60,000 bases of DNA from Tubulanus polymorphus (lineage: Eukaryota > Nemertea > Palaeonemertea > Tubulaniformes > Tubulanidae), in NCBI RefSeq assembly GCF_964204645.1, contig NC_134026.1, positions 18,930,650 through 18,990,649 on the forward strand. Reading direction: 5' to 3'. Below, piece by piece: positions 6,301 through 55,668 of this stretch (positions within the stretch are counted from its first letter, which is position 1; each line of letters opens with the position of its first letter). The notes below the pieces were generated by a model. It worked only from the letters and a program-made list of their open reading frames with translations, was not told the DNA's origin and searched no databases. The position numbers were made by a program, and so were the translations under genes.

Positions 6301-9300
6301 TAAATTGCCACACATTGCTGAACATCTCTCGGAAAACATTCCAAACGATATTTTGAGGGGTAACGTGTGCTGGGCTTAAAAGGAAGCGGTTTCCCATTTT
6401 CTCTGATACATATACACTAGGTTGTTTATATATTTATTTTAGCACGGTGCTGAGCTACTTCCTCGTCGTGATATGCTTGAAATGTTGGTGTCTATATTGA
6501 ACTCATCGTCCAGTAAAGTACAACAGGTGGCTCAGGCGGCGTTATTTGCCGTCGCTGAATGTGGCAGTGGTATGGATGGCTGCGCGGCTGCTGAACAAAA
6601 TGAAATCGACATATTGTTGAGAGCCTTGAAATCACCGAGGACCGCCACTCGAGAATCAGCATTACTTGTGAGTAAACAAACTCCGGAAAGACCCAAACTG
6701 GAAATTTACGATGATCCATTAAGTTTTATTTATTTTCTGAAGGCTCTGAACATAATGATTGTATTGTTGCCAACACCTACCGATGATCCGAAGAATGGCT
6801 TCATAGTTGCACAAAGGATTCTCGTCGCCAAATGTGACCCGGAAGAAAATGTACAAAAACCAGCTGATAAGTATGTGGTATTTTCTGATTTAGATAGTAC
6901 CAGTAGATGTTAGATGGAATAAGCTTTACCTGTTGAGTTCAATATTTATTCCTCAAGAATCACATGCATAAAATGGTACAAAATTTCGTATTTGAAATAG
7001 AATGTGTACCTGACGTCACTAACAGCTATTGCCTTTGAACACTTCTATCTAGCCCATTTCATCTATCCGTCCATCAATATGTGGACAGAATCCCATTTTG
7101 TTGTAAAGTTTTTCGACATTCTTCGGTCTTGATGTTAGGTTTTTAGCCCACTTGGGACTTTTAGTCCCAGCGGGCTATTGCGTTCACTTTTCGTCCGTCA
7201 TCTGTCCGTTCGTCCGTAGACGGAATCCAGTTATTTTGGGAAGTTTTGAAGACGCTACAAGGTAACGTCTTGATATTTGGGTTACACATGTATCTACACA
7301 AAATCAGCACTTTTTACACATTTTTTAACTTTTTGAGGGAAATTTTGAAGACGCTTTGATCAATTACCTTGATCTTTCGGATATATGTGACCCCCCCCCC
7401 CCCCCCAGGGCCCATCAACATAACAAAAATTGGGTCGGTCGAACTCAAGATGGCCGTCCTATGACCTTTTTAGTGCCCAAAAATGTTAATTTTGGCCCGT
7501 AGCTTCCTACTGGTTTGCCATTTCTCATTGCATTTTGTGATGGGTATTCTTTGGAAAGGGATGTTTTATACCTGAGACAGGTATTTTTCATCAGCCAATT
7601 ACGACGCAATTGGTGGCCATCTTTGTGTCACCAGTACTCATTCGTAAGTGGGAAGAAGTTTTTCCACATTATATTGATACCTAAGCGTATTTTGCTACCA
7701 CAATCAATTGGAAAGTTGTAGCTCATAACGTGTTCTATGATTGTGGTGAGTTTCAAGGTAATTGGATTTCGTATATGGCCACCAGGGGGCGTTGAATAAT
7801 ACAATATCTTAGCATTTCTTTATCATATTCGTACCTATGCATATTTTGTAACCACAATCAATTGGAAAGTTGTAGCTCATGACATCATCTATGATTGTTG
7901 CGAGTTTTAAGGACATTAGTTTTTCTAAATGGTCACCAGGGGGCGTTGAATAGTAGAATAACTTAGTATTTCCTAATTATATCGGTACCTAGGCATATTT
8001 TGTTACCATGATCAATTGCAAAGTTGTAGTTCATGACATGTTCTATGATTGTGGTGAGTTTCGAGGTCATTGGGTTTTGAATATGGTCACCAGGGGGCGT
8101 TGAATAGTAGAATGACTTAGTATTTCCATATTAAATTGGTAACGAGGCATATTTTGTTATCACAATCAATTACAAAATCGTAGCTGCTGACATGTTCTAT
8201 GATTGTGGTGAGTTTCAAGGTCATTGGTTTTTGTAAATGGTCACCAGGGGGCGTTGAATATTGAAATTGTTAGATTGTTGAGCATTTGAAACCACTTCCC
8301 AAGTGGGCATGGTGTCCCTGGACCCCTAGTTATCAGTTTACTAAAAACGTTCTAGGCTAACTAATGTGTAAAGAAACACCACAATTCTTGTGCAAAATAA
8401 CTTGTGCATAAACTAGTGTTACATCAATGGAATTTGATTCAGAATTTATTTTCTGCTTTTCACAAATTCATTAAAATCAATATCTGAAGAAATCGCATAG
8501 CCTAAATGATTAGGACTGAAGAAAAAAATGTGTACGTTGATATTGGTTCTTTCCAACTGTCTGTTACTATTTGATAAGAAACTATTGTGGTGTATCCTTC
8601 AATTTTTGCACTACAGTATGTTCCCTGGGCATCACGATTTACGTGTCTGAAACTTCTGATTTTCTTGACAAAGTCTTAAAAGTCCATGCAGCTCTTGTTC
8701 GGTGGATATTTTTCAATTGCTGATACTCAATCTTTGTGTTATATTTTCATATTATCAATTCGCATAACTCGCTTTGTTTTGAAGTGCTTGTAACTTAAAT
8801 CTCAAACCGCCAGGTTATGGGAAGACATGGGCCTGGACCTCCTACCAGAGATGTGTTGTGGTCTAGTAGACGATCTTGTATACCATGAAGAAGTGATTCG
8901 AAAAGCTGCATCGGAGGCACTGGCATTGTGTTTAGAGGAATTCAGTGATCAAACATCGAACGTGCTAGAAATCATCATGGAAAAGTACGAAAAGAAACTC
9001 TACGTAAGTTATATTATATTTTCTTTTCTTTGTCGTCTACAAAAAATTCTACCTTGTGGTCTGGAGATCTGTCCAGAATATTACTAGTTCACAAAATGGT
9101 GTGTGTTGCTTATTCTTATACATCGCTGCCATTGCCTAGTATCTAATATTCGTTCTTTAAGTTTAAAAGTTATACAATATTGACGGCAATCTTCATCTCT
9201 GGCAGTTAACGCCTTATTTTGACGATCATTGTCTCATCTGGCAATGTGCGATCAAATTTTTTTTTGTGATTTCGTAGAGACCACCACCAGTTTTAGACAA

Positions 9301-36300: not shown

Positions 36301-39300
36301 CTAGCCGGAAGTCTGGGATGTCCTGACGAAGTTGAGGTGGGTTGCCATTAGGATTTGATTTTGTACATGAAAAGAATACATGCATAATTGCAACGAATTG
36401 ATCTTAAGGATGCGAACCATGCAATGTAGAAAATGAATAATTAATCAAGTCGGTTAATTACTCCAAACTAACAGATTCTTGCGCACTAAATCAACTGAAC
36501 ACATTGCCATATCAAGATTCTTCTATGTAGCTCATCTTAGTTGTTTGCTGTTTCATAGTATCGAGAATGGCATGGGCATTTGTGATGAAGTCGCATACTC
36601 TGGTTGATTATGGAAAGAGTTTATGATCTACGGTAGACTCCGCCCAAGTTGGATCCGACCAACTCGGATAACTGTTCAACTCAAATGTTTGTCGAATTAC
36701 TTGCGACACTATTCAAGAAAAACATAACATCCAACTCGGATATTACTCAATTCGGACACATTTTTACAGTCCAAAAACATCCGACTTAGCGGCGTCTACT
36801 GTATCTTATTCCATTGTGCCAACTTCCTGATTACTGCCAGCGTCTGAACGAATGATCCGAACAGTTGAAATTGATTCAATGTCGCAGTGGCCGAGTGGCA
36901 TTTAAGGGACACTGGTCTCGGCACTGGTCTCGTCACTGGTCTCGTCAATCCAGGGTTTATGGGTTCAAACCCTGGTGGCGACAGAGTTTCTTGGTCGAAG
37001 GTTCTTCTCTGGTCTCTCCCCCATTGGGAAAAAGAAACATTGAACCCACTGATTATGCCATCTGCCTGGTGCTTAGCAGGTTGGGGGTGTTAAAAGAAAT
37101 ATGAAATGAATTTCCTATTTCAATTTCTTCCACCAGCAACTAGGCTATTGCCAAAGCGTCGTGCTGTCGGTGCAGGACCCGGTAGGAATTCACTCGATCA
37201 TGGATGAACTGCTGGGAGCGACGAGCAACGCGACTGATATGAGCGAGTGTTTCGCCGCGATAACGATGCTGAAAGCGTTTTGCAGTCAAACGAAAATGGA
37301 CTACGAAGAGTACGTGCCGCAGTTGATACGCGGATTGATTTCGTTGTTCACGTACACGGATACGCGCGTATTGCTTGAAGGCTGGGAATGTCTGAACGCA
37401 ATCACTAAGGTATGTAAAAATGAATATCGATAATGAAGTAAATGATGATATGATAATGTGGATCGAAAAATATTGTGGAACTGTGTTATAACAGAATCTT
37501 ATATACCTGATAATCTTATAAACTGTTCAACAGTGGATTAGGTTGTAACAAATAGTTTGTCTCCTGTTGTAAGGAAAATCCAATCTGTGTGGTGAAAATG
37601 TTCAAATATATATTTTTGTCCATGAATACTGAGTTCCCACCATAGTTGAATTTCATGCCGCAAATGAATTACTTTAACAAGAATATTTACTATTATTAGA
37701 ATATGGATCCGACCGAAATGTTACAACATATCAGCACTGTTCGTCAGGCGCTTCGCTTCGCTCTGAGTGACTACAAAGAAGAAGAACTTCCTGGCTTCTG
37801 CATTCCGAAAAAGGTATATTTCAGATTAGTATGTTTGAAAGTTGAATCAATGTCAAAGGAAGCCATAGTGCAGTGAACAGCTCCAACAATTGAAACTGAA
37901 ATTTTGCTATTTTTTTCAAAGCATACTAGAAAAAGCTTTGTGAAGCTTGGTGTGAAATGCGTTTACTTCCTAATTTTAGGGTATTGCTCCTATTCTGCCG
38001 ATATTTCGCGAAGGTATTTTGAACGGTCCACCGGAATTGAAGGAATCTGCAGCAATCGGTCTCGGCGAAGTTATCAAGAGGACAAGTGCTGAAGCTTTGA
38101 AGCCATCAGTTATTCATATCACCGGTCCGCTCATCCGTATACTCGGTGACCGATTCAGCTTTTCGGTTAAAGTTGCCGTTCTGGAAACGCTTGGGTTATT
38201 ACTTTCGAAGGTAAATTTACTCCTGTTGCTTGATCCTGCGGATCAGATTGATTCAGCTTTCTGTTGGACCGAAAATATGAGAGTTCCCTCTTAAGATTAA
38301 GATGCCTATTGTAAGATATGCTTAAGTATTTGTGTTTGATACATTAGCTACATTAACATCTGAAAGTAAAATATTTTTTTGCGTGATTTTTAACCAGATT
38401 GACCTTTCGATTTCTAGTGTGGCGTCATGTTGAAGCCTTTCTTGCCGCAGCTGCAGACCACTTTCATCAAAGCGTTGAACGATCCAAACCGGTCGGTGAG
38501 GTTGAAGGCGGCGTCGGCACTCGGACAGCTCATATCCATACACACTCGAGTCGATCCACTATTCACTGAACTTCACACTGGTATCAAAAATGCTGATGAC
38601 GCGTCTATCAGGTACGGCAGACCCTTCCAAATAGGACCAACGTATTTTGCACCAATTTAGTCGACTTTCTTGCCTATAGACGGAGATATTCCCAAACTGA
38701 AAGATCGCATCCCGATCTATGTTACCATGCTTCCAAAGATTGATGATATGAAGAAGAGTGCTCCGTATTGATTAGAAATTGTTATCTAAAGGCACTACTT
38801 TGTGACCTTGTTTCATCACCTCTATTCATCATCTACATCCACCTGCAGTAAAGTACTACATGTGTTGTGTGCGGTTACATAATGTATGTTACATATCTGA
38901 TGGGTCTTCTTATTTGAAGGATAAGCGAGAGCTCTTGATACATTTTAGGAATGCCATAAAGAGAAATGCCTAAGAATACTCTTACAAGTTTTACTGGTAG
39001 CATTAATCAGAATCATCATATATTTCATGAAATTTTCAGCCTTGGCCTAATTCCATGCAGGGTTATTTTCAATGCCAACACTACCTCGCCTCTTTGTTTG
39101 TCGATGACCATGTGCAGACTAAACTATCACAGGACAGCGATGGCTGTTCTTTCTGATTAAGATTAAGATTACTTAAGCTTTTGTTGATGTGGTTTTGGTA
39201 TTAAACATCTGGTGGGGCAAAAATGTACTGGTACTATTTTGGCACTGAATTGGTTAATAATACGCTGGAGCTGTTTCACGAACGCGAAATCCATTATTTT

Positions 39301-49499: not shown

Positions 49500-49639
49500 A
49501 GTAATTGGTAATATGGGGGTTTAGATCAAAGGTCGAGAGGTCGAGTGAGTAGAAAAATAAATTCTCGCACACTCGAATTTATTTTTCTACTCACTCGCCC
49601 TCTCAACCTTTAACCTGAACCCCCATATTACCAATTACT
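49500..49639. repeat. 140-bp palindrome at the left edge of the viral block
   Basis: Left arm begins AGTAATTGGTAATATGGGGG (49500) and the right arm ends CCCCCATATTACCAATTACT (49639). Arms of about 68 bases pair almost throughout, with a 4-6 base loop near 49570. Not A+T-rich like the block that follows. Could be a fold-back MITE or a remnant of a viral hairpin end. Confidence 0.88.
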
Positions 49640-49730
49640 TTAATATTCATATATGAATAACATATAAATGAATAACATATATAAATGAATAACTTCTAAA
49701 ATCAATTTTCATAAAAAATTTGATATTAAA

Positions 49731-50026
49731 ATGGAGAGTAAACAAATACACAGTGAATTCTTAGATAGAATTAAAGATACAAATGTCAAATCTGTAGATT
49801 ATAAATTTAAGAAGTTAACAGAATAAACAATTCATAAGAAATATTTAATTACAAATATTGATACTGTTACTAATAAATATGGAGATAAATTAGTTATCGA
49901 CTTAGAATATGAAGGATTAAAAGGAAATAAATATAAATTAGATAGGGCGATTTCTATTTCATATATAAAGGTAAGAATGAAAAAGGGCACCATGATATAG
50001 ATTTCGAATAATATGAAAATATGTAA
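49731..50026 (+). pseudogene. Viral-block gene A, unknown
   Basis: Begins MESKQIHSEFLDRIKD at 49731. In-frame TAA at 49824, a frameshift around 49950-49960, a second internal TAA at 50009 and probable true stop TAA 50024. About 95 codons. A segment of the type 'tkyGdklvidle' followed by an aromatic/Lys-rich end recalls small nucleic-acid-associated proteins of such elements, but I cannot assign a function. Upstream signal weak (ATTAAAATGG, no T run). Confidence 0.55.
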
Positions 50027-50031
50027 AATAA

Positions 50032-50780
50032 ATGGTAGAATTAAAAGAATATAGAATATTTGTTGATTCTAGAAGACTTACAAATTATAAATCACATAAT
50101 TTACTAGTACAATTAGATAGGGAATTTAAGAATTGTGTAGATTTAAAATTAGTAAATGTAAGTTTATGTAACTCATTTTACAATATATCGGATAAAAGTC
50201 TTGATCATAAAATGCTTTTATGATTCACGTTAGGAGAAATAATAAATGGTATCATCTTTTTTTAAGACCAGGATTATATAATTTAGAGACTTTAGCGCAA
50301 GAAATTAATAGAAAAATTAAAACAAAAATGAGCGCAGCTGCTGGATTTGGAATTAAATTTTTAAAAGGTGATAATAATAATAAATTAAGAATAAAGTTAG
50401 CTAATAAAGAACAACACAAATTTATAGTGAGAAAACCATTAGCTTAACTGTTAGGAATTACACCAAATAAACTTTATTCAAATGTTGATTCTACACCAAA
50501 TATAATGCCTTTTACACATTTTTATATTTATTGCAATTTAATTGATCCTACAAAAAACATTTGAAGTAAAGATACAACTTGTAATTCTAGTATATTGAAT
50601 ATTTTACCATTAAAAAATGTTAAGCAATTTGGAACACAAATAGATTATAATTTAGCTGAGTGTGATTTCAAACCATGCATTCCACATTTTAATAATTTTA
50701 TAAGAAATCATAATGGATACTAAATTGATTTGAATAACTTTCCTGTCATTTATGAATTAGTTATAAGATGTAAAGAATAA
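50032..50780 (+). pseudogene. Viral-block gene B, possible minor capsid protein
   Basis: Starts MVELKEYRIFVDSR in the context ATAAATGG. Frameshift at about 50218; internal TAA 50445, TGA 50562 and TAA 50721; end TAA 50778, which touches the promoter motif of gene C. About 249 codons. The beginning (a strand followed by VDSR) and the pattern 'LRPGLYNLETLAQEIN' are of the kind seen in penton or minor structural proteins of capsid-bearing DNA viruses; this is a low-certainty inference. Confidence 0.5.
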
Positions 50781-50799
50781 TTTTTTCACTATATAAATG
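50779..50799 (+). promoter_or_regulatory. Late-promoter-like signal, gene C
   Basis: AATTTTTT, 10 bases, then ATG at 50797 as ATATAAATG. Confidence 0.65.
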
Positions 50800-51168
50800 A
50801 ATATAACTGTTGGACCGAGTATATGTTTTGGATTTGATTTTAAACGTGAGAAAGAAATGAAATTTAACATTAATGATGTAATAATGCATATCAAAAATAC
50901 TACATTTTTTAATGGAACAACATTTGAATATGAAACAACAATAAATGAAGAAACTTTTAATGTAGAAAAGATTACTGATTTAATTAGAGAGTCTTTAAGA
51001 TTTTATGAATTAGATGAAGATTTCATTATTGATGATATTAGAAAAATAATAACTGAAATATATGATAATCATAAAAGTAGTAATGAAATAAATGTTGAAA
51101 TAATTATAAATAAGATAACTAAATATTTTGAAGATGGTAATTTTTTTTTATTAATAAATGGCGGATAA
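50797..51168 (+). CDS. Viral-block gene C, hypothetical, intact
   Basis: 123 codons, uninterrupted. MNITVGPSICFGFDF start, then acidic helical text (LRFYELDEDFIIDDIRKI) and no membrane segment. Ends inside the start of gene D (11-base overlap), so its original stop may have been a little earlier. Function unknown. Confidence 0.6.
   Translation: MNITVGPSICFGFDFKREKEMKFNINDVIMHIKNTTFFNGTTFEYETTINEETFNVEKITDLIRESLRFYELDEDFIIDDIRKIITEIYDNHKSSNEINVEIIINKITKYFEDGNFFLLINGG
51139..51160 (+). promoter_or_regulatory. Late-promoter-like signal, gene D
   Basis: AATTTTTTTTT, 8 bases, then ATG at 51158 as TTAATAAATGG. Confidence 0.65.
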
Positions 51169-51378
51169 GAAGTGGATAATAAATGGGTTATATAATGGAG
51201 CATTACTATCAGTGGAACTGTTGGTTATACAATGGTATTAAAAAAAGTATTCAAAATGGGAAGTATTAATGTTGATAAATTTGATATAAATGATATTTTG
51301 AAATTAACATTAGCAGTTACTTTATCTAATTTAACAATTGATTATTTAGAAAAACAAAAATATATTCCTCCTATATAA
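51158..51378 (+). pseudogene. Viral-block gene D, small membrane protein
   Basis: Starts MADKKWIINGLYNGALLS; one frameshift near 51212, then open to TAA 51376. About 73 codons with an N-terminal hydrophobic stretch, a second near LKLTLAVTLSNL, and a YIPPI end. Two-helix small membrane proteins of this kind are common in capsid gene clusters; function unknown. Confidence 0.5.
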
Positions 51379-51384
51379 ATGCGT

Positions 51385-51405
51385 AATTTTTTTACTCAAT
51401 AAATG
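51385..51405 (+). promoter_or_regulatory. Late-promoter-like signal, gene E
   Basis: AATTTTTTT, 9 bases, then ATG at 51403 as CAATAAATGG. Confidence 0.65.
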
Positions 51406-51825
51406 GCTTCTGCAATTATAACTATTATAGGATCGGCAATTGTTAACGCTTTAGCATTTACTGGTGGTGGTTATTTATTTAAGCATATTGATAAAAATAG
51501 TTCATTAGGAGAACAAAGAAGACATAACTTAGCATTAGAGAAATATAATAAAGCTGCAGAAGAATATAGAGAAAAGAGACAAAACTATATGGATTATATC
51601 AATAAAGAATTATATAATCAGAAAATTACACATAGAGATTTTCAATCAGTTGATGATGCAATGAGTTTATATAACGCAGTAACAAATAAAGAAAAATTAC
51701 ATCTATATAAACCCAAATTATCAGATTATTATACACCAAGTAGAGAACAACAAAAATATGAAATAATTTGGATTTTAGGTGGAAGTGTTATTGTTATATT
51801 TGTTGCATATAAATTTACAAATTAG
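51403..51825 (+). CDS. Viral-block gene E, two-helix membrane protein, intact
   Basis: 140 codons, no interruption. N-terminal hydrophobic segment (IITIIGSAIVNALAFTGGGYLF, residues about 4-25), a charged coiled-coil middle with many Glu/Lys/Tyr, and a second helix near the C terminus (IIWILGGSVIVIFVAY). Stop TAG 51823. Likely a virion or envelope-associated protein by architecture only. Confidence 0.6.
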   Translation: MASAIITIIGSAIVNALAFTGGGYLFKHIDKNSSLGEQRRHNLALEKYNKAAEEYREKRQNYMDYINKELYNQKITHRDFQSVDDAMSLYNAVTNKEKLHLYKPKLSDYYTPSREQQKYEIIWILGGSVIVIFVAYKFTN

Positions 51826-51826
51826 T

Positions 51827-51847
51827 AATTTTTTTGTTAGATAAATG
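51827..51847 (+). promoter_or_regulatory. Late-promoter-like signal, gene F
   Basis: AATTTTTTT, 9 bases, then ATG at 51845 as AGATAAATGG. Confidence 0.7.
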
Positions 51848-52272
51848 GATAAAGTTGATAATAATGATATTATCCTTCATGATATAAATAAAACTAAATT
51901 AAAATCATATTTTGAAAAACAAATATTAGAATTTGAAAGTGACTTAAAGATAAAAAAGAAAAAATTTTTAAAATCTAAAATTATATATTATTTTATTATT
52001 AGCGGTTCAGTTACAATTAGTTCTGTAATAACATTTTTAGCAATATTTACTCCATTAACACCTTTAGCTATCTCAATTGGTGTGTTAGGATTATCATCAA
52101 GTGTTTTAACCGGAATAAGTTCAAAATTGAATATAAAAGGTAATAAAGGAAAAAATCTAATATAAAAGAAATTGATAAATTAAAAAATACATTAGATTAT
52201 ATAATAAGTTTGAATGGTAATATAACAATTGAAAAACAAGATAAATTATTAAAAGAATTAATTAATTATTAA
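51845..52272 (+). pseudogene. Viral-block gene F, membrane protein
   Basis: Starts MDKVDNNDIILHDINKT. Charged N-terminal helix, then two hydrophobic segments (YYFIISGSVTISSVITFLAIF and PLAISIGVLGLSSSVL). A frameshift near 52160 moves the Lys-rich tail to another frame ending TAA 52270, which overlaps the next promoter motif. About 142 codons. Unknown function. Confidence 0.55.
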
Positions 52273-52291
52273 TTTTTTTATTATATGAATG
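52271..52291 (+). promoter_or_regulatory. Late-promoter-like signal, gene G
   Basis: AATTTTTTT, 9 bases, then ATG at 52289; here the context is TATGAATGG instead of ATAAATGG. Confidence 0.6.
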
Positions 52292-53603
52292 GTAGAAAGT
52301 TTTCCAAAAGCTTTTCAATATAATAAATCAATTGACTATAATATTCCTGCAATAGATTTTAATGAAGATATTTCATATAGAAATGAAGTTTTAGATTCAT
52401 TAATTAATTTAGATATTTATGTTACTGAAACTAATAATTTTAATGCAAAGATGGAAATATATTTCATGTATATATAATTAATTCTAAAAAATTGAAAGAT
52501 GAAAAACAATGGTTATTGAAATCTAATATGAAGTATTGGCAGAACCAATTAAATTTTGTTGTTTATTGTGCAACAACAGGATGTGGATTAAGTTGGAATG
52601 ATCATTTGAATAATTCTAAATGTGAATTAATTCAAAGTTTATTTAGATTTCATACTTATTTTCAAATAATATTAATATTAAATGAATTAGAGACTCCTTT
52701 ACCAGGATCTAGGTATTTTAAAGAATTAGATAATAATATTAATTTATCAAAGTTTTATAAAATTTGTAATGAACTTAATATAGATATAAATCATTCTGAT
52801 TTTAGAACAAAACTTGGAACAATAAGATCATTTCCTTGCCCTAAAAAGATTGCAGAATATTGTGCACTTCCAATACCATCTAATACCTTTTATAATATCT
52901 ATAATGATTAATTAGGTTATGGTAAAATAGAAAGGATTTAGAAACATTAAATTTCAATCAATTACCGAAATTCTATGATAATTTAAAACAAGAAAATAAT
53001 AATAGTTGGGTTTATTTTATATTAGAAAGTAGTGAAGGTTTTACTGAAACAAGATCCCCAATAATTGGAAATTTAAACACACCATTTGATACACAAAAAC
53101 AATTTTAAGTATTATTTGAAGATTCCATTTATAATGATAGAAATAGATCGATTCCAGAAAATATAGTTAGGTACCAAAATTATCTAGATAAATCTCATGT
53201 AAAATTAAATTATTGTATAGGCCCTAATTTATTAATTATTTCTGATGATTTAATATTAAAAATGGAAATATGGAAATATAATTGGTTATAATAATTCAAT
53301 TAAGACTGCAACAATACATAATAAGTCTGGATTAAATGATATAAATAAAATGATTATTACTGCTCCAAAACTAATGGAAGGTGAAAAATTAAAAAACATA
53401 TTTAATCAACTGAAACTAAAACTAAGAATATTCAATTGGATAATGATTCTGAAATAAAAGATTACAATACTACAGAAAATATAAAAAGTGATATTATTCA
53501 ACATGATATAATTAAAACTAATAATGATAATAAATCCCATGAAAATACTAAATTAGCCATAACTTGTATAGGAATTGTAATAGGAGGAATATTATATTTT
53601 TAA
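52289..53603 (+). pseudogene. Viral-block gene G, large structural-type protein
   Basis: About 437 codons, starting MVESFPKAFQYNKS. Breaks: frameshift near 52475, TAA 52909, frameshift near 52930, TAA 53106, frameshifts near 53285 and 53410. End TAA 53601 after a C-terminal membrane helix (LAITCIGIVIGGILYF). The segment YCATTGCGLSWNDHL followed by an RFHTYFQIILIL region resembles a recurrent uncharacterised gene family linked to capsid genes in invertebrate viral elements, as far as I recall. Probably a virion component; function not known. Confidence 0.55.
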
Positions 53604-53607
53604 TTTT

Positions 53608-53630
53608 AATTTTTTTTAAAGATATAAATG
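53608..53630 (+). promoter_or_regulatory. Late-promoter-like signal, gene H
   Basis: AATTTTTTTT, 10 bases, then ATG at 53628 as GATATAAATGG. Confidence 0.7.
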
Positions 53631-55039
53631 GAAGTAGAAGGTGGAGAAGCTTATGAAATGGGAGAAATGGGAAATAATAATGATGGATATAATGATGAAC
53701 CACAACCTGATTTTAATGAAACTAATATTGATAATGATGATGGATCAGCATATAATTCTAATTTAGCAGATAGTGGTTCTAAAGGCCCATCAACAGATGT
53801 GTTTGATAGAAGAACTAAATCGAGAATAAATCCCGAAAATGAAAATCCAGATTTAGTAAAACAAAATTTAGAAAATAATGAATTTATATATAATTTCAAA
53901 CCTATATTTGAAAGATCTGGATATAATATAAATGATAGAGGTGCTAGATATTTAGAAAGAGAATTAAAATTTTTAGATGGTGAATATTATTATCATTTGA
54001 AAGATGATTATTATATTAATATCACTTATAGAAATCAAAATAAAATATTAGCAGAATCAACTTTGAGTAATTTAGAACCATCTAGAATTTAAAAGAATAA
54101 GTAATAGTAATGAAATAGAAAATGTTACACAAGAAGAAATAAATCAAAATAAAAGAGTATTTAAACAAAGAATTAATGACTTATTTGAAACAATCAATAA
54201 TAATTTAGAAACAGAAACAACTTCTGGTAAACTTAAATCCAATAAAGTTCCAATTGAAAAACGTTTACCGAATGGGTTACTTGATGCAACAGATCAACAA
54301 TTAGGAGATTGAAATATATTTTCTGATAAAGCAATTAGAGAAATTATTAGTATAAGAAATAAAGCTGATAAATTTGTGCATGATAAATGTATAAGAGATT
54401 TTAAAATTAGAACTTTCGAAAAAGATAGAACTGATAAAATTAAAGAAATAGAACAATTAAAATTAGATAGAGATAATAAAGTTATTGAAGAAATTGAATT
54501 TAAAAAAAGAAATGCATATTTAGAAAAAGAAAAAGATGATTTAGAATATAACATAGAGAAGAAGAAGAAGAAGAAGAAGGAAGAAGAAATTCAATTATTA
54601 AAAAAATCATATGATTATAATATTAATAGATTAAAAGCTATTTTTTAAGATTTGTTGATAAAACCAAATTCTGAAATATCATTGAAAGATTGAATAGAAT
54701 TATTATTTAAGTTAGAAGGTATAACAATTCTTATTTACAACAATTGGTTTAGCTATATCAAATTCATTAAAATCTGCGCCTACGCCCAATAAACCGGATA
54801 ATAATAATTCTATACAAGATAAAGTTAAAGATGGATTAAAGAAATTAGCAAAATATCTATGGGAACTATCTAAAAAATCTGCTGCAGCTTTACCCGGAGT
54901 TATAGCGTCAATTGTTGGTTTTATATTGAAATCTGCTGGAAATATTATTAACTTTGCTGCTGAACATATAATCTTATTTCTTATTACAGTTGTAAGTGCA
55001 ATTATTTTTGGGTTAGTTATTATGATCAAAAATAAATAA
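53628..55039 (+). pseudogene. Viral-block gene H, acidic/coiled-coil protein with C-terminal helix
   Basis: Acidic Asn/Asp/Gly-rich start (MEVEGGEAYEMGEMGNN, open to 54090). A frameshift at 54092 leads to a long charged coiled coil (KKRNAYLEKEKDDLEY, poly-Lys at 54557-54580) with TGA 54310, TAA 54646 and TGA 54691. Another frameshift near 54722 is followed by a Lys-rich amphipathic stretch and a terminal membrane helix (IILFLITVVSAIIFGLVI) ending TAA 55037. No promoter signal occurs inside, so I treat it as one gene of about 470 codons, but it could be two. Confidence 0.5.
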
Positions 55040-55041
55040 TT

Positions 55042-55062
55042 AATTTTTTTGTTAAATAAATG
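55042..55062 (+). promoter_or_regulatory. Late-promoter-like signal, gene J
   Basis: AATTTTTTT, 9 bases, then ATG at 55060 as AAATAAATGAG. Confidence 0.7.
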
Positions 55063-55668
55063 AGTGGGAATTATATCAATCCTTCTAAGAATCATAGAAT
55101 ATCTAATGCTATTAAAGCAGAAAGATCTCATCATATAATTACCCATAATCCTTCTAATATTAATCCTGATGAAACTTTATATGTTAGAATTCCTCGATTA
55201 ACACAAAATACTATTTATGTTCCAAATAGTATTTATTTATCAGCTGATATAAAAGTAACTGGCAATAATAATGATTATGTTGTTGATAATGTTGGTAGAT
55301 ATTTAATTAAAAAGTTAACTATAAAGATTGGAACAGAAACAGTTTTCTCATTAGATGATTATAATTTATTTATGCCTTACAAAGATTTATGGTAAACAAA
55401 AGAAAATAGAAAGAATATGATATTTCATGGCATCCAATCAGAAAACCAAAATGAATTAAGATCTGAAGCTAATTGCGCAATATTAAGTAATGATGCATAT
55501 AAATTAATAATAAAGTTTTATGGAAGCAAATATAAAATTCCATTAGATTTTGAATTGATAAATAATAATGTGCCTTTATATAAATATGCTATACAAGAAG
55601 ATATTATATTTGACTTATGTCCACCATTTTCCCACTGTTTGTTGAATTAAGAAAAGATGAAATAAGAT
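55060..55668 (+). pseudogene. Viral-block gene J, candidate major capsid protein, truncated
   Basis: Starts MSGNYINPSKNHRIS. Followed by beta-strand text with YVRIPRLTQNTIYVPNSIYLSADI, NVGRYLIKKLTIKIGTE and a YKDLW block, the pattern of the first jelly roll of double-jelly-roll capsid proteins. In-frame TAA 55393, stop 55648, a frameshift near 55630-55650, and the viral sequence ends abruptly near 55668. About 200 codons remain, less than half of a usual capsid protein. Identification by pattern only. Confidence 0.55.

Follow-up and report, generated by a model that had tools for sequence, protein, structure and literature searches.

A T-run box before seven consecutive genes of an abundant Polinton family in the nemertean Tubulanus polymorphus

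The 60,000-nucleotide stretch of Tubulanus polymorphus DNA analyzed here (contig NC_134026.1, positions 18,930,650 to 18,990,649; hereafter the window) carries a block of viral-type genes that is a truncated copy of a Polinton/Maverick element without PolB. Its sister copies in the host genome form what we call family I. Seven consecutive genes of the block, ending with the capsid gene, are each preceded by a short box in which TAA and a run of T residues are followed at a nearly constant distance by the start codon. The box looks like a poxvirus late promoter yet belongs to an abundant Polinton family, not to a poxvirus. The reading that we favor, and to which the sequence leads us to give about an even chance, is that the box represents a class of start-proximal promoters belonging to one Polinton family. 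The seven boxes are as follows.

50778..50799, + strand: T-box 1, TAA-T6-N10-ATG (T-run 50781-50786, gene start 50797)
51138..51160, + strand: T-box 2, TAA-T9-N8-ATG (T-run 51141-51149, gene start 51158)
51384..51405, + strand: T-box 3, TAA-T7-N9-ATG (T-run 51387-51393, gene start 51403)
51826..51847, + strand: T-box 4, TAA-T7-N9-ATG (T-run 51829-51835, gene start 51845)
52270..52291, + strand: T-box 5, TAA-T7-N9-ATG, with TGAATG (T-run 52273-52279, gene start 52289)
53607..53630, + strand: T-box 6, TAA-T8-N10-ATG (T-run 53610-53617, gene start 53628)
55041..55062, + strand: T-box 7, TAA-T7-N9-ATG (T-run 55044-55050, gene start 55060)

The original prediction stated that these starts share AAT(6-9), then 8-10 bases, then ATG, and its coordinates and spacing proved correct when re-measured. 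In gene order, the T-runs are 6, 9, 7, 7, 7, 8, and 7 nucleotides long, with TAA directly 5' of the run in all seven. The ATG lies 10, 8, 9, 9, 9, 10, and 9 bases after the end of the run and 16, 17, 16, 16, 16, 18, and 16 bases after its start (standard deviation 0.73). TAAATG stands at the start codon of six of the seven genes, as had also been claimed, the exception being 52289 with TGAATG, and 5-7 bp separate the end of the T-run from TAAATG or TGAATG in all seven. The start at 52289 is less certain than the others because a second ATG lies at 52285, four bases upstream.

Intergenic spacers in the block are short, and the T-run consequently also lies 0-8 nt 3' of the upstream stop codon in six of the seven cases, while AATAAA overlaps the ATG at several box starts. 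Both features would suit a signal that ends the transcript of the preceding gene, as a terminator or of poly(A) type, or one for reinitiation within a polycistronic mRNA. However, the distance from the T-run to the upstream stop varies with a standard deviation of about 12, against 0.73 for the downstream ATG, and in the window copy the T-run of the 51158 gene sits inside the upstream frame (stop at 51168, distance -28). Because the box keeps its distance to the downstream ATG but not to the upstream stop, a 5' signal is favored and the terminator or reinitiation explanation appears quite unlikely. In a packed array of genes on one strand, a T-run just upstream of the ATG could also be the polypyrimidine tract of a trans-splice acceptor, which would require an AG. 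An AG occurs between T-run and ATG in only two of the seven window genes, is absent from five, and by eye was seen at none of 50 capsid-gene starts. Trans-splicing is largely refuted by this absence, and we regard it as very improbable.

T-runs might simply be common between A/T-rich genes, and the element is A/T-rich (23.8% G+C in L039, part of a sister copy on C7), which would speak for chance or base composition. Against this, 7 of the 140 ATGs on the + strand of 49641-55642 qualify, exactly the seven starts, and 0 of 79 on the - strand, while 1000 dinucleotide shuffles of the same region gave a mean of 0.65 and a maximum of 4 qualifying ATGs. Order-2 and order-4 Markov sequences (1000 each) likewise gave at most 4, so the controls never reach seven, and T-run/ATG pairs were not as frequent in shuffled DNA as in the block (maximum 4 versus 7). 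Outside the element, at window positions 1-43000, 3 of 765 and 0 of 752 ATGs qualify on the two strands. Counted from the T-runs, the next ATG lies 8-10 nt downstream for 6 of 10 runs of at least six T's on the + strand of the block (7 counting 52289) and for 0 of 13 on the - strand; in L039 225-10000 the figures are 5 of 7 and, on the other strand, 1 of 23. Six of 252 ATGs qualify in L039 (shuffle mean 0.78, maximum 5), five of them at starts orthologous to those of the window and one (4271) at no gene start; the T-run is lost at the L039 counterpart of 51403. The motif is present in sister copies that keep open frames, in line with what the original prediction would expect of less decayed relatives.

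Genome-wide counts were made over the 268 Mb of the host genome, with element and host sites pooled. The pattern TAAT7-N6-TAAATG occurred 3093 times and its reversed control 3 times. Other spacers gave 13 sites for N4 (reversed control 4), 114 for N5 (6), 700 for N7 (2), and 22 for N10 (4). The spacing thus falls within a narrow range, and, judged by its reversed control, the full box is a rare pattern. Many of the first 100 N6 sites, all on C1, were clustered at the gene spacings of the element (246, 442, about 1850, and about 1480 bp). Given the controls and the dominance of one spacing genome-wide, chance was rejected as an explanation of the spacing and is extremely improbable as the source of the box.

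The original prediction had offered an unknown cytoplasmic double-stranded DNA virus as one source of the block. This does not hold, as integrase, inverted repeats, and target duplication mark the element as a Polinton. Gene order was obtained from the C7 copy (L039 and L040, with L041 as its flank on the left) and from partial sequences of two further copies (L052, L053). The first strand carries a gene for C2H2 fingers plus PolB, a 117-aa gene, a putatively penton-like gene, the seven-gene box block ending in the capsid gene, and a 242-aa gene whose product has a weak zinc-finger match; the opposite strand carries an A32-type ATPase, an rve integrase, and a 200-aa gene. PolB (L052 1728-3863) matches PF03175 with E 2.1e-16, and its frame is preceded by the C2H2 fingers; at least 111 PF03175 matches were found in the genome, in frames of up to 1690 aa. 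The integrase (L053 1899-3002) matches rve with E 4.1e-9 (37.1 bits, cut-off 32.6), and its C-terminal Chromo match is weak (E 8.8e-5, 22.8 bits, below the cut-off of 25.1). The packaging ATPase, of A32/FtsK type, matches Pox_A32 with E 2e-12 and 1.5e-11. In the frames tested, no Pfam match was found to an adenovirus-type cysteine protease. Two copies measure 18.6 kb (on C10, between inverted repeats) and 17.3 kb. The terminal inverted repeats (TIRs) of the C10 copy are identical at 328 of their first 330 nt, and this copy is flanked by a 6-bp target duplication, GAGGCA/GAGGCA; the flanks of the C1 copy agree at 5 of 6 positions, and no repeat was seen at the cut right end of the C7 copy. The genome searches scored only the best candidates (150 of 1202 for the capsid N-terminal piece, 97 of 1633 for the capsid frame, 91 of 1340 for PolB, and 40 of 1876 in the search that yielded the copies of 18.6 and 17.3 kb), so copy numbers are lower bounds biased toward good copies.

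The window copy contains the following features besides the boxes.

49500..49639, no strand: left terminal repeat, 140-bp near-perfect palindrome AGTAAT...ATTACT; arms 57/62 identical, ends of sister copies alike
49700..49731, + strand: internal deletion junction, PolB missing; the PolB upstream region is joined to the start of the 117-aa gene
49731..50030, + strand: 117-aa-type gene, broken, end approximate, without T-box
50032..50780, + strand: presumably penton-like gene, broken, without T-box; open 215-aa homologue in L039
50797..51168, + strand: 123-aa gene with T-box
from 51158, + strand: small gene with T-box; 73 aa open in L039, membrane-like segment by eye
51403..51825, + strand: 140-aa gene with T-box; membrane-like segments by eye
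51845..52165, + strand: 106-aa gene with T-box; longer homologue of 144 aa at L039 6476-6910
52289..53603, + strand: long gene with T-box, broken; C-terminal membrane-like segment by eye
53628..55039, + strand: long gene with T-box, broken; acidic N-terminus, C-terminal membrane-like segment by eye
55060..55613, + strand: major capsid protein gene (assigned by structure model), 5' part, interrupted by a stop after codon 111; many sister copies have 415 aa

The deletion is seen where window 49497-49709 matches L039 15-225 and the match then resumes from 49700 at L039 4250. Beyond base 554 of the capsid gene, the only similarity to the C7 copy is a TA repeat. The N-terminal 111 residues of the capsid protein have at least 150 genome matches at 92-100% identity, many of them in an open 415-residue frame, and by hand count this frame is without a stop in 88 of the 97 scored matches. 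By sequence, the protein gave only a Capsid_N match below cut-off. Its AlphaFold2 model (pLDDT 88.5) retrieved the capsid proteins of PBCV-1, iridovirus, Faustovirus, and mavirus in Foldseek, with E down to 2.5e-17, and by this model the family I capsid is a double-jelly-roll major capsid protein. The N-terminal piece yielded one candidate in a protein database search, which was not scored, and the full frame found 113 relatives, 31-77% identical, among 5.8 billion proteins. Organism names were few among them: Mactra antiquata (a bivalve), Paramuricea clavata (a coral), and, for one entry, a filing under Bartonella. These 113 relatives were compared as proteins; the box is known from the host genome alone.

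The distribution of the box among family I genes was then scored over distinct copies, counting a run of at least six T's that ends 8-10 nt upstream of the ATG. It was present in 5 of 5 copies of the 50797 gene, 4 of 4 of the 51158 gene, 2 of 4 of the 51403 gene, and 2 of 2 of the 52289 gene. The 51845 gene had it in 1 of 4 as counted and 4 of 4 by eye, an alignment offset having hidden three rows, and the 53628 gene in 3 of 4 as counted and 4 of 4 by eye, with one row hidden in the same way. At the capsid gene (55060) the box stood in 39 of 45 distinct copies; these copies are 93-100% identical at the gene start, so their agreement mostly reflects shared descent. At the seven other family I genes, the box was found at 0 of 46 starts (PolB 10, 117-aa 3, penton-like 3, 242-aa 21, ATPase 3, integrase 4, 200-aa 2). 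These denominators include rows without an ATG at the expected place, three for the 242-aa gene and one for the integrase, owing to an offset, a change, or unrelated upstream sequence. One 200-aa start (L066) has a T7 run ending 11 nt upstream. TAAATG was absent from the PolB (0 of 10) and integrase (0 of 4) starts. Starts of PolB, the 117-aa gene, and the 242-aa gene (L052:332, L039:4282, L040:1280) share TTTAATAAAAAT... about 10-25 nt before the ATG, a look that may represent another promoter class.

As a promoter, the box (TAA-T6-9, with TAAATG 5-7 bp later) would act from -16 to -18 relative to the start codon of seven consecutive genes ending with capsid. Transcription would probably start downstream of the T-run but before the ATG, so that leaders would be very short, and the tightly packed same-strand block could be switched on gene by gene, with PolB, integrase, and ATPase using other signals. 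The seven box genes have no visible relation to each other. Its most likely reader would be the host's RNA polymerase II in the nucleus, guided by a factor from either the host or the element; a nuclear life is suited to an element that has its own integrase and PolB.

Several observations weigh against this promoter-class reading. TAAATG is found also at the starts of the ATPase (3 of 3), penton-like (3 of 3), 117-aa (2 of 3), 242-aa (17 of 21), and 200-aa (2 of 2) genes; alone, it is a general start context and not specific to the T-run genes. Leaders shorter than 10 nt are unusual for polymerase II, and no dedicated transcription factor was identified in family I beyond the weak C2H2 fingers. 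The listed matches suggest that most of the 3093 genome-wide sites are copies of a few genes, and the sites are therefore not independent. The looser pattern T8-N7-TAAATG, without TAA, occurred 203 times versus 64 for its control, and 6 of 8 fetched loci did not resemble the C7 copy, which means that host DNA has sites of this kind too. Lastly, two copies have one box on the strand of their PolB match, about 2 kb 5' of it, and a second box in inverted orientation close to the other end (C1:12621601 and 12638648 with PolB at 12623603; C1:14081564 and 14065194 with PolB at 14078246). Judged from these positions, the box would stand in the terminal repeat before PolB in some copies. This argues for exchangeable promoters and against a strictly late class, which was set aside.

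The likeness to poxvirus late promoters that gave rise to the original prediction is borne out in part. Like those of vaccinia and other poxviruses, which consist of T residues, 5-7 bp, and TAAAT(G/A) (PMC5294985, in part), the box combines a T-run, 5-7 bp, and TAAATG at the start codon in one gene block. The poxvirus T-rich core, however, is about 20 bp long (same source), compared with the 6-9 T's found here, and in family I TAAATG is not class-specific, replication is of Polinton type, and no poxvirus transcription genes were seen in the frames tested. The linkage to transcription genes that the original prediction raised was not found: Pfam searches with family I frames showed neither an RNA polymerase nor a late factor of poxvirus type. 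The box could nevertheless have been copied from a large cytoplasmic DNA virus that co-infects the animal, imitating its late promoter, so that the RNA polymerase and late factors of that virus would transcribe the capsid block, as in mavirus. The layout at the start site fits, very short leaders suit such polymerases, and endogenous virophages carry motifs that match the late promoter of their helper (PMC8547959, in part). Besides the short T-run, 7 of the 14 family I genes examined have no box, and no helper was seen, the host-genome search for VLTF3 (PF04947) being incomplete. In IMG/VR viral contigs no relative was confirmed with the capsid piece, full capsid, PolB, or alignment A1, and one version of the exact box pattern had 0 matches. 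Against genome contigs, alignment A1 retrieved one 4.6-kb contig (L067), which is not useful for an A/T motif because it has 55% G+C. We consider a helper-derived box possible but rather doubtful.

With Polintons/Mavericks and adintoviruses, family I shares PolB, an rve integrase with a chromodomain-like tail, an A32/FtsK ATPase, a double-jelly-roll capsid, inverted repeats, and a 6-bp duplication. To known Polintons it adds the T-box before seven capsid-block genes and a palindromic outer 140-152 bp of the TIR. A limited literature search (titles and abstracts, with subscription journals mostly outside it) found no animal Polinton with a T-box or a palindromic TIR end, and nothing on animal Polinton promoters. 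Mavirus and EMALEs are likewise Polinton-like integrated viruses with a repeated A/T-rich motif before genes, but their motif is TCTA (PMC8547959, in part), and in family I the box marks one gene block only in the copies read and no helper is known. Yeast cytoplasmic linear plasmids (pGKL) resemble family I in having a short upstream box per gene and an A-rich start (PMC6831550, in part), but encode their own transcription machinery and capping enzyme, neither of which was seen in family I.

Other Polinton families of this genome carry a gene for TATA-binding protein (TBP). In family II (L088 with L057), which is G+C-richer, an intronless TBP gene adjoins the integrase (L088:3328-3867, - strand, C5:11165100; PF00352 E 2e-35), and among solved structures its product matches best the TATA-box-binding protein 4v1n (residues 7-171 of 180, E 2.9e-30). 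In family III (L091-L093, 99.8% identical), a TBP gene, also intronless, lies beside an rve-plus-chromodomain integrase (L091:1231-1779, - strand, C4:19902943; E 1.6e-33), and its product is 41% identical to the TBP of family II. Further TBP places include C6:11167375 and C7:6381007, while C1:23499136 and C2:27277845, which are split into exons, appear to be the host's own TBP and a relative. When 24 of the 41 TBP matches were compared with part of the 111 PolB matches, each frame being entered only once, 10 of the 24 had a PolB on the opposite strand 4.4-7.2 kb away, and for one the distance was 24 kb. TBP genes are also present in mirusvirus-like elements of a green alga (PMC10675990, in part), and viral TBPs are thus already known. 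Part of a transcription machinery is therefore present in one or more Polinton lineages of this genome, and none was seen in the family I frames tested. The T-box was absent at the eight family II starts read, a further point against the promoter-class reading.

The timing and drive of Polinton virion genes are undescribed as far as our limited literature search goes. The box, repeated at tight spacing in a family that is abundant and keeps many capsid frames open, offers a handle on whether Polintons behave as viruses and whose polymerase they need. A helper requirement, if true, would make this a virophage-like system in an animal and would be very surprising. It seems unlikely that family I is an animal counterpart of mavirus, that is, at least 150 and probably hundreds of Polintons whose capsid blocks would fire only from a pox-style late promoter with the machinery of a large DNA virus, while other families carry their own TBP instead.

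Some further observations concern the element and its surroundings. The outer 140-152 bp of each terminal repeat read form a near-perfect palindrome (window 49500-49639; L039 18-167; L043-L051). Its arms are identical at 57 of 62 positions within the window copy, compared with 48 of 64 between the window and L039, which looks as if one arm had been copied from the other. The PolB deletion, which joins at the start codon of the 117-aa gene, resembles a defective-interfering genome. The PolB frame (L052:1728-3863, L039:1967-3421) also matches Recombination endonuclease VII (PF02945) just below cut-off, with E 1.1e-4 and 6.1e-5. The structure model of the L039 penton-like homologue failed (pLDDT 32), and the 144-aa homologue of the 51845 gene is weakly SLATT-like (NF033632, E 5.9e-5, 23 bits, cut-off 55). 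The middle of the 53628 gene (window 53767-54317; L039 about 8436-9233) is strongly divergent between copies, and the adjoining capsid region is 90-97% identical; this stretch possibly belongs to a surface or receptor-binding protein. To the left of the C7 copy, L041:1-5000 shows about 5 kb of flat 42-46% G+C with regular skew, probably a satellite array. The window also holds a GCN1-type exon at 39223 and reverse-transcriptase frames, which fit animal DNA.

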